Source of the DNA: Saccoglossus kowalevskii
Taxonomy: Eukaryota > Hemichordata > Enteropneusta > Harrimaniidae
Assembly: GCF_000003605.2 (NCBI RefSeq)
Contig: NW_003126929.1
Location: 35,611 to 57,608 of the forward strand
Length of the DNA: 21,998 nucleotides
Direction: 5' to 3'
In this document: positions 5,643-18,452 of the stretch, one piece after another
Layout of the letters: each line of letters starts with the position of its first letter
Numbering within the stretch: the stretch's first letter is position 1
The notes under the pieces: model-generated
What the model was told of the DNA's origin: nothing
The model's input: the letters and a program-made list of their open reading frames with translations, nothing else
Databases searched by the model: none
Translations under genes and position numbers: made by a program

Positions 5643-7246
5643 ATTTGATATGCTTAGTAAAATGAAACTGAAATTCCTCTTTGTACATTTCTACAATCCT
5701 AGCTAGGACTCAACAAACATAATGATATAATTATAATAATAATTTAATTATGACTTTTGTGCCAATGTTCAATTACGTATTATGATATTATATTCATATT
5801 CACACTTTCCCATTTTTTTAAAGCCAGACAGTGATTCGACGATTACTCAAATACGGAAACTATTTTGCTATGTGAGCTAAATTATTAATTTGTAATATTA
5901 TGCACGTTAGAAACTTCACACGTATTGTTTATGCCCACTGATTGTCATATGTGTTTTACACTTCACTATTACCGAGCGAACGATAGTGGACTGGGAATGA
6001 GCAAACAAAAAAGTTGGCGGAAGTAGAAAATTACGCAAACAGTCACATACTAATTGTAATTTATAACTTCTTGTCTAAATTCATCCATTGACCGCGTAGG
6101 TATACACAAATGGCGAATGACGTGACAGTTATTTTATTTAAGAACAAATTAACACTTTCAAAATCCGTTACTCAATTACTTTACTGAACATTATAGCTAA
6201 TCGTGATCAACAAAATTTCACTTCATGTTTTCAAATTAAGCTTATGAAATGACTGCGATGAGTACTCCTTCAGTACCTGCATTAGCAAGGCATTTAATTT
6301 CTCAAGGAAATACCTACAGCATATATAGATTGGTGAAACAAATGTACGAAGAAGAGGCTTTTACACGACACACTCTCCATTGATAGAGTCTTATTACTCG
6401 TGACGTTGGTATTTTGAATCAGCAAATTCACAAGATTACTTCTAAATACCACAGGGATAGTGAGGTAATTAATTATCTATAATTATTTCAATGTACGTCA
6501 GTATTACCCAAGTCATGTCATGAAGGTTCTGTTTTATCAGCGTTGTTTTTCTGTCAGCAGTTTATCTACACGGAATTCCTGGAAGGATTCTTCACTATTG
6601 TCAGACAGGTTAACCAGTAATGGAAACATTTTCATGAAACAAGGAACACCCGATTTCATTTTTGGGGAGATCTGAAGCAGGTTGCTAGTGAAACATAAAA
6701 CTAATGTGTGTATGTTTGTCTGTGAAGAATGTTTGGTGGGGTTGTTCTGTAGACAAGGACATCAGATGTACAAAAATGAGTACAAGAGATTACAGGTATG
6801 TGTATGGATATGTACTGAGCGACTTACAGTGCTTTCTATATTCTTATATATTTGCAAGAACATCGGGTATGATATTGTGCAGCGGGTGTCACATCAACGA
6901 TCGTATAGAAAAAAGTCAGCATCTCGATCGGACTGTTTAAAAGATAAGTTATTCTAAACCAGTTTGAAACAAATGTCACAAATTAGGTCGTCTTTGAGCT
7001 GTTATCACAGGAATACGTTCGATAAGCAGTAGACATATCCAGAATGACATAATTAAATTTATATTACTTGTTTACACCTAGTTATACGAATCAAACTGTA
7101 CATATAATTATATTTTTATCACGTATGTCCACCAAGTTTACGTTGTAATAAGTCAGTAAATCATGATAAATACTAGTATCATAACCAGTACTACACACGC
7201 TATTAATAAAATAATAATAATAATTTCCACATCTAATTTCTCTTAA

Positions 7247-13581: not shown

Positions 13582-13671
13582 AGCTGACGTCATAGTAAGT
13601 TGTTAATTTAATTCACGTGGTGCAGCTGACGTCATAGTAAGTTGTTAATTTAATTCACGTGGTGCAGCTGA
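13582..13671. repeat. Exact 42-bp tandem duplication with CRE and E-box palindromes
   Basis: Two identical 42-bp units occupy 13582-13623 and 13624-13665, followed by the first six bases of a third. Each unit contains a full palindromic cAMP response element, TGACGTCA (13585-13592 and 13627-13634), and a CACGTG E-box (13614-13619 and 13656-13661). The unit junctions also form CAGCTG (13623-13628 and 13665-13670). Perfect identity implies a recent duplication. A regulatory role is inferred from the motifs alone. Confidence 0.95.
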
Positions 13672-13950: not shown

Positions 13951-14035
13951 TAGAATAGAATAGAATAGAATAGAATAGAATAGAATAGAATAGAATAGAA
14001 TAGAATAGAATAGAATAGAATAGAATAGAATAGAA
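13951..14035. repeat. (TAGAA)17 microsatellite
   Basis: Seventeen uninterrupted TAGAA units (85 bp). The open frame on the minus strand that crosses it encodes only a Phe-Tyr-Ser-Ile-Leu repeat and is not a gene. Confidence 0.98.
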
Positions 14036-14906
14036 TTCGAGTGATTATATCGATAACTGGAGTCAAGTAGACTTCTCGGGTGCCATTGATTTCGCGGATT
14101 GGTAATTGTCATACAAACATACATTTTCTTTCTGAGCATAAAAACAAGGTCATACCCTATTTTATTAATTGCAAAAAAAGTTGTGTCAACCATTACAAAG
14201 CTGCTTGCACATCATTGTGATTGCAGATGAATCTACAATTTAGTTACAGTGGTTCCAAACATTCGATAGAATGGACAATGTTAATGATGTATACAACGAT
14301 GTAGCCGACATTCAACCCACATTTCAGCTAATAATTATATTATTTCGGCAAAACGTAAATTGTATAACAGCACGCAAAGACATAAGTGCATCATATTTCC
14401 TGATAGTATTGACGACTCATCGATGACGGTGATTGGGCATGCGTACAATGTACAGGGACAGAACAATATCATGTACATTCTCGCACTGAGAATCTACAAA
14501 ACTGTTTTATAATTTATTGCATGCATGGTTGCATTAAATCACTTGATATATGTTTCCATATTTGGAACTATTCAACGCTTATTAATTAGTTCAATAAATG
14601 ACATTCAAAGTAATTAAGTAAATCATATATGCAACACAATAATTCCAAAAGCTAAGTTGAAACTAAGGCACATTCGTAAAAATGCAAGACGTGAATGAGT
14701 TGAAATGTGGGGACTTAATCATTCAACACAGTTGTGGGTGTTTATCAAAAACAAAATAAAATAAAATATCGATTTCATGATATCCTCATATCAGTCACAT
14801 TTCTATGATTATACCCTACATAGATAACGTGTGTATTGTTTGGTGGGATTCTTGCTTTTCCCGTTTGCGATTATAAGTGTTATTATATGTTGGAAGGACA
14901 ACATCG
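14036..14906. other. Non-coding stretch
   Basis: AT-rich sequence without a credible exon or structured repeat. The frames that enter it derive from the TAGAA tract or from the hAT-like block. Confidence 0.5.
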
Positions 14907-18202: not shown

Positions 18203-18208
18203 ACTTAC
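18203..18208 (-). other. Splice donor of the TNF receptor exon
   Basis: On the minus strand the exon ends ...CGTAACA and is followed by GTAAGT, a full match to the eukaryotic 5' splice consensus from the GT onward. The intron would begin in phase 1, after the first base of codon 82. If it were not spliced, the frame would run on to 18147 through 20 more residues of low-complexity character, which supports splicing here. No matching acceptor and transmembrane exon could be identified downstream. Confidence 0.7.
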
Positions 18209-18452
18209 TGTTACGTTCATGAGGGACGGGTTTCCTAAGTTCCTTTGTACAGTTTCGGCAAATAGGCGTGGCGGGGAATTCCTTGCAAATATCGCAGCTG
18301 ATGCAGTGACGTACAAAATTGTCGTACACTTCGCCTTTGCCACACTCGTGTTGCACAGACTCGGGCTGTATTGCGAGTACGTTGACGGTAATGGCGGCTA
18401 GAACGCTCCATGATAGAACAATTATGCTCGCGAAAGCTACGTACTTCATCAT
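18209..18452 (-). CDS. First coding exon of an Fn14/BCMA-like TNF receptor superfamily member (partial)
   Basis: Seen: the frame opens at the ATG complementary to 18450-18452 and runs 81 codons plus one base to a splice donor. An in-frame TTG farther upstream is not a credible eukaryotic start. Residues 1-27 look like a signal peptide: Met-Met-Lys, then a hydrophobic run (VAFASIIVLSWSVLAA), with a plausible cut near VNVLA. Residues 37-68 hold six cysteines at 37, 50, 53, 56, 65 and 68, spaced C-x12-C-x2-C-x2-C-x8-C-x2-C, with a Tyr-Asp pair in the first gap. Known: this spacing is that of Fn14 (TNFRSF12A, the TWEAK receptor), and BCMA is nearly the same. Such receptors are small single-pass membrane proteins that bind TNF-family ligands and signal through TRAF adaptors. 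Inferred: a secreted or type I receptor whose membrane and TRAF-binding parts lie in later exons at lower coordinates. None of those exons was found. The family call is fairly firm; the exact orthology is open. Confidence 0.8.

Follow-up and report, generated by a model that had tools for sequence, protein, structure and literature searches.

Does an exon that encodes a signal peptide and six cysteines spaced as in Fn14 belong to a receptor of the TNF receptor superfamily, and where is the rest of its gene? The question is raised by a locus on contig C1968, within a stretch of 21,998 nucleotides that was analysed as a whole and is called the window here. The first-pass annotation had read the exon as part of an Fn14-like TNF receptor and, if the genome is invertebrate, as a candidate ancestral single-CRD receptor. 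According to our analysis it is, with good confidence, the first coding exon of a small type I membrane receptor from that branch of the superfamily which has small cysteine-rich domains (CRDs) and comprises Fn14, BAFF-R, TACI and BCMA. The earlier interpretation is partly supported, being largely right on the domain and unproven on the rest of the gene and on ancestry.

The exon and its parts

The exon translates from the minus strand as MMKYVAFASIIVLSWSVLAAITVNVLAIQPESVQHECGKGEVYDNFVRHCISCDICKEFPATPICRNCTKELRKPVPHERN, 81 residues with no stop (Table 1). It starts with ATG ATG AAG, runs through a hydrophobic leader into the six CRD cysteines and ends with ...CGT AAC A in front of GTAAGT, i. 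e. one base into a codon (phase 1, read by eye). The observation of an exon with Fn14 spacing, signal peptide and splice donor is confirmed. A signal peptide of about 27 residues is visible in the translation of the same exon as the CRD, the 12-2-2-8-2 spacing is identical in the PDB sequences of human Fn14 and of 2kn0, and the intron postulated behind the exon begins with a phase 1 donor. The six cysteines that characterize a CRD of the TNF receptor superfamily are all present.

When all six frames of the window were searched with a relaxed Fn14/BCMA cysteine pattern, this exon was the one place that matched; 300 simulated windows (first-order Markov) contained no match. No second CRD pattern was found in the readable part of C1968, of which 13 kb are N. 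As DNA, the exon had a single match in the 572-Mb assembly, which was the exon itself. Neither tRNAs nor Rfam families were detected in the window. Elsewhere the window contains a perfect 42-bp tandem duplication (13582-13671) and a perfect (TAGAA)17 array (13951-14036).

Table 1. Positions of the exon, its parts and related exons (window coordinates unless a contig is given)
Feature	Position	Strand	Remark
Coding part of first exon: signal peptide and CRD, 81 codons plus 1 base, phase 1 end	18209..18452	minus	
Signal peptide, about residues 1-27, MMKYVAFASIIVLSWSVLAAITVNVLA	18372..18452	minus	cleavage site placed by eye
CRD, residues 37-68, C-x12-C-x2-C-x2-C-x8-C-x2-C	18249..18344	minus	
Splice donor GTAAGT, phase 1	18203..18208	minus	read by eye
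Candidate transmembrane exon, phase 1 acceptor, DLPEEFVIVLFGLVCFSSLLALLAPKIKRWLGNRRS, donor CAG/GTAAAC	C1968:11328-11503	minus	
CRD exons of the C1494 cluster	C1494: 45092/45523, 51076/51304, 53912, 69500/69746		

Domain class

When the window exon was compared with 177,635 distinct PDB sequences by phmmer, the top match was Fn14 (2kn0, E 3.2e-4), followed by TACI (E 0.05) and BAFF-R (E 0.08); a ferric uptake regulator, which is unrelated, appeared at E 0.09. Neither Grindelwald nor Wengen was named among the 15 PDB matches at E <= 10. In Pfam the two best matches were BaffR-Tall_bind (0.0013) and TACI-CRD2 (0.004), both below their curated cut-offs; the third was a weak and unrelated one (JAMP, 1.5), and stn_TNFRSF12A (PF12191) was not listed for the window exon at E <= 10. 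When sequences were shuffled with the cysteines fixed, the similarity of the window CRD to 2kn0 stood out (p 0.0008); that to human Fn14 was less clear (p 0.016). An AlphaFold model of the mature domain from the single sequence was helical and of low confidence (pLDDT 67.6, pTM 0.41) and was dropped as the basis of a fold search.

A protein search of the genome with the window exon revealed four more exons, on C2597 (3.9e-6), C3225 (0.019), C3484 (0.097) and C1494 (0.81). Read by eye, the signal peptide and the first CRD share one exon with a phase 1 donor at all five loci. Submitted alone to the PDB search, the C2597 exon found TNFRSF12A first (4.1e-4, with an unrelated polyphenol-binding protein at 0.031 in the same list) and the C3225 exon found Fn14 first (2.6e-4); the C1494 exon alone and a three-exon model from C3484 had no Fn14 match in the PDB. 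PF12191 matched C2597 (0.006, 17.4 bits) and C3225 (0.027, 15.3 bits) below its cut-off of 24.9. No Pfam match rose above the curated cut-off for the window exon, C2597, C3225, the C3484 model or C1494. The reading as a TNF receptor CRD of Fn14 type is supported, Fn14 being the top PDB match of the window exon and of two of the four paralogues.

Profiles sharpened the picture. With a profile of three sequences (window, C2597 and C3225) Fn14 was matched at 9.5e-6 and human TNFRSF12A at 1.5e-4, with TACI, BAFF-R and BCMA following from 0.009. All seven matches under 0.02 belonged to the Fn14/TACI/BAFF-R/BCMA group, the first unrelated protein being a subunit of NADH-quinone oxidoreductase at 0.022. 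A profile of six CRDs matched Fn14 at 4.7e-6, and again its matches under E 0.02 were all from this group.

A different small cysteine-rich protein, secreted or membrane-bound, could have converged on the 12-2-2-8-2 spacing. The domain is short, its Pfam matches stay below cut-off, and outside the cysteines it shares just 4 residues with 2kn0 and 2 with human Fn14. Yet Fn14 or TNFRSF12A heads the PDB list for each of three sequences searched separately, both profile searches gave only members of the group under E 0.02, and the similarity to 2kn0 persists with the cysteines fixed, which makes convergence highly improbable. Judged by these comparisons, the window domain belongs to the small-CRD group of TNF receptors (Fn14, BAFF-R, TACI, BCMA), and Fn14 is the closest overall.

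The paralogues are not equally close to Fn14. In cysteine-fixed shuffling against human Fn14, C2597 (p 0.0002) and C3225 (p 0.0024) were clearly similar, whereas two C1494 CRDs were no closer than the shuffles (p 0.57 and 0.60). On this measure the C1494 genes are more distant from Fn14 than the window gene, C2597 and C3225.

C2597 and C3225 also share a similar exon of 43 residues (53% identical), at a distance of 39 kb and 27 kb, respectively, on the downstream side of the CRD exon. It resembles the ligand-binding domain of nicotinic acetylcholine receptors, and its presence at both loci hints at a segmental duplication.

The rest of the gene

Two of the related loci contain more of their genes. 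C1494 carries a tandem cluster at about 45.0-69.8 kb, in which the spacing points to four related receptor genes. Three of these have two Fn14-like CRDs, each on its own exon, and for three genes membrane exons were found. The second gene of the cluster (CRDs at 51076 and 51304) has separate exons for stalk, membrane segment and tail. After its membrane helix and an RRRR cluster comes an in-frame TAA, past which the frame and a phase 1 donor run on. This TAA may reflect a truncated receptor, a polymorphism or a sequence error. On C3484, at about 55.0-57.1 kb of the minus strand, a complete three-exon model could be assembled (signal peptide and CRD, membrane exon, tail; 123 residues). Its tail ends with KKITKPMSETGSVGTAV and contains the motif PMSET. 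The best Pfam matches of this model were two unrelated membrane families, TMEM154 (0.0007) and PRIMA1 (0.0045), with TNFR_c6 third and below cut-off (0.012).

In the five loci we searched for membrane exons, defined by a phase 1 acceptor followed by a hydrophobic stretch and at least three K/R. Five such exons were found, each on the gene strand and downstream of a CRD exon; C1494 has three of them, and C3484 and C1968 have one each. The opposite strand of the readable sequence of the five loci gave none. A wider scan (both strands, three phases, five loci) gave 14 hydrophobic candidates, these 5 being the ones that combine phase 1 with three or more K/R. Two further candidates with three K/R had another phase, one of them overlapping the C1968 candidate and one lying on C2597. 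Weaker phase 1 hydrophobic candidates were seen on C1968, C2597 and C3225. C2597 and C3225, the closest paralogues, had no membrane exon by this definition within about 59 kb downstream as far as this could be read, some stretches being unread.

The C1968 candidate lies outside the window, 42 kb downstream of the CRD exon, and is single-copy, with no other genome match at E <= 10. When the 53.8 kb downstream were simulated (third order), 3 of 200 runs contained a membrane-exon match, a post hoc figure, as the definition was fixed after the candidate had been seen. The donor of the candidate is in phase 0, in contrast to phase 1 in the C3484 relative. The 13,125 bases of C1968:22486-35610, which end exactly at the start of the window, read N, so the real second exon may lie in this unread stretch. 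Within the window, a hydrophobic open reading frame at about 7156-7242 (minus) does not qualify as a membrane exon; by eye it has no usable acceptor, and it has an internal stop and lies in an AT-repeat context.

A TRAF-like tail exon was not found among 342 candidate exon starts in all phases of the readable C1968, and a scan of the five loci with phase 1 acceptors gave a PxxET-like tail on C3484 only. None of the 82 death-domain matches in the genome at E <= 1 lies on C1968. The first-pass annotation had called for a transmembrane helix together with a TRAF-binding motif: the former has a candidate; the latter was not found on readable C1968. As 13 kb of the contig are N and the tail exon was not found, the gene model is unproven.

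Two alternatives bear on this point. The exon could be real and spliced to a short secreted tail, giving a soluble decoy receptor or a secreted CRD protein. The two closest paralogues, which over about 59 kb of downstream sequence, as far as readable, have no membrane exon by our definition, would fit this, as would the missing tail exon on readable C1968, where the membrane exon is a candidate only. However, clear phase 1 transmembrane exons occur in the C1494 and C3484 relatives and one candidate occurs on C1968, and we regard a secreted product as unlikely. Alternatively, the exon could be a pseudogene, i. e. a broken or unexpressed copy, since the rest of the gene has no certain identification and a C1494 paralogue carries an in-frame TAA. 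Against this, 81 open codons with a start, a signal peptide, six cysteines and a GTAAGT donor make a pseudogene quite improbable.

The favored interpretation is still that of a small membrane receptor. The signal peptide would send the protein to the surface. By analogy with Fn14, the CRD would consist of two disulfide-held modules, first a beta-hairpin and then a small second one, and the one CRD would engage a single subunit of a TNF-family ligand trimer. The membrane anchor would be supplied by the candidate exon 42 kb downstream. The cytoplasmic tail, from later exons outside the window, would most likely bind TRAF adaptors. The receptor is probably of the TRAF type, and signaling through TRAFs is most likely, as the analogies to Fn14 and to the complete C3484 relative suggest.

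Origin of the receptor set

Could the exon simply come from an ordinary vertebrate, e. g. fish, Fn14 gene? An assembly size of 572 Mb would suit a fish. Vertebrates have one Fn14 gene. Counting the window, this genome has five related CRD loci, and at one of these most genes of a tandem cluster have two CRDs. TNF-ligand exons gave 14 matches on 6 contigs at E <= 1, 8 of them over the cut-off, but they match Pfam weakly (33.6 bits at best), and death domains gave 82 matches at E <= 1. Such weak ligand matches, so many death domains and so large a receptor family make an invertebrate genome probable and a vertebrate gene very unlikely.

The genome may then be non-vertebrate, with the window gene and those on C2597, C3225 and C3484 representing a pre-vertebrate stock of Fn14 and of BAFF-R/TACI/BCMA; we put this forward tentatively and think it somewhat doubtful. 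The label 'ancestral' and any placement in a tree are unsupported, because 32 aligned residues are too few for a tree. If there was such a stock, one member would combine an Fn14 scaffold with a BAFF-R-like hairpin, another would have an Fn14-like hairpin (WSA) and yet another a PxxET TRAF tail. The receptors for BAFF, APRIL and TWEAK are usually discussed within vertebrate, often adaptive, immunity. If a non-vertebrate origin is confirmed, the small-CRD class of TNF receptors would predate vertebrates, and a small, testable set of receptors would be at hand for asking which ligand arose first.

There is also a practical side. The general TNFR_c6 model was not listed for the window, C2597 and C3225 exons and was below cut-off for C3484 and one C1494 CRD; it fails to detect these small-CRD exons at cut-off. 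If the stock existed, surveys using TNFR_c6 at cut-off would have missed the whole class. A survey in Aplysia (PMC9334734) counts TNF receptors by IPR001368.

Comparison with known receptors

In the main texts of PMC4979521, PMC4346834, PMC9334734 and PMC7519573, papers on invertebrate TNF receptors, Fn14 is mentioned nowhere. Within the largely open-access literature searched, Grindelwald is the only invertebrate receptor likened to Fn14, and this by topology: section 7 of PMC8024323 says that its topology resembles Fn14, BCMA and TACI CRD2. The same section describes eight cysteines in Grindelwald with Cx3C pairs in its C2 module. The window exon shares a single small CRD with Drosophila Grindelwald and Wengen. 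Compared by description, it differs from Grindelwald in having six cysteines with Cx2C instead of the eight of an X2-C2 arrangement.

Fn14 (TNFRSF12A) has the identical spacing of six cysteines. Beyond this framework the likeness is modest: counting cysteines, the window CRD is identical to 2kn0 at 10 of 32 positions and to human Fn14 at 8 of 32, which leaves 4 and 2 non-cysteine identities, respectively, and the tip of the hairpin reads DNFV instead of SADL. The gene structure differs as well. In Fn14 the signal peptide and the CRD are split between exons, whereas the window gene has both in one. The C3484 relative resembles Fn14 in length and in its tail motif, with 123 residues in the model and PMSET, compared to 129 residues and PIEET in Fn14 (PMC7072601).

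With TACI and BCMA the difference lies in the second module. These two have x3 spacings there, whereas the window CRD has x2-x8-x2 as in Fn14. The hairpin, which according to section 7 of PMC8024323 makes the main ligand contacts in small-CRD receptors, tells another story. The Asp-x-Leu motif that this section describes for BAFF-R, TACI and BCMA is replaced by Asp-Asn-Phe in the window hairpin VYDNFVRHCISC. Of the 12 residues compared in this hairpin, 7 agree with TACI CRD2 and 6 with BAFF-R, compared to 3 with 2kn0 and 2 with human Fn14. The hairpin of C3225, TWSAVFHKCIHC, has 6 of 12 residues as in human Fn14. The window gene thus appears to bear a mixed signature, an Fn14 cysteine scaffold with a ligand-facing hairpin (YDNFVRHCISC) more like that of BAFF-R and TACI, which, over so short a stretch, we take as a lead.
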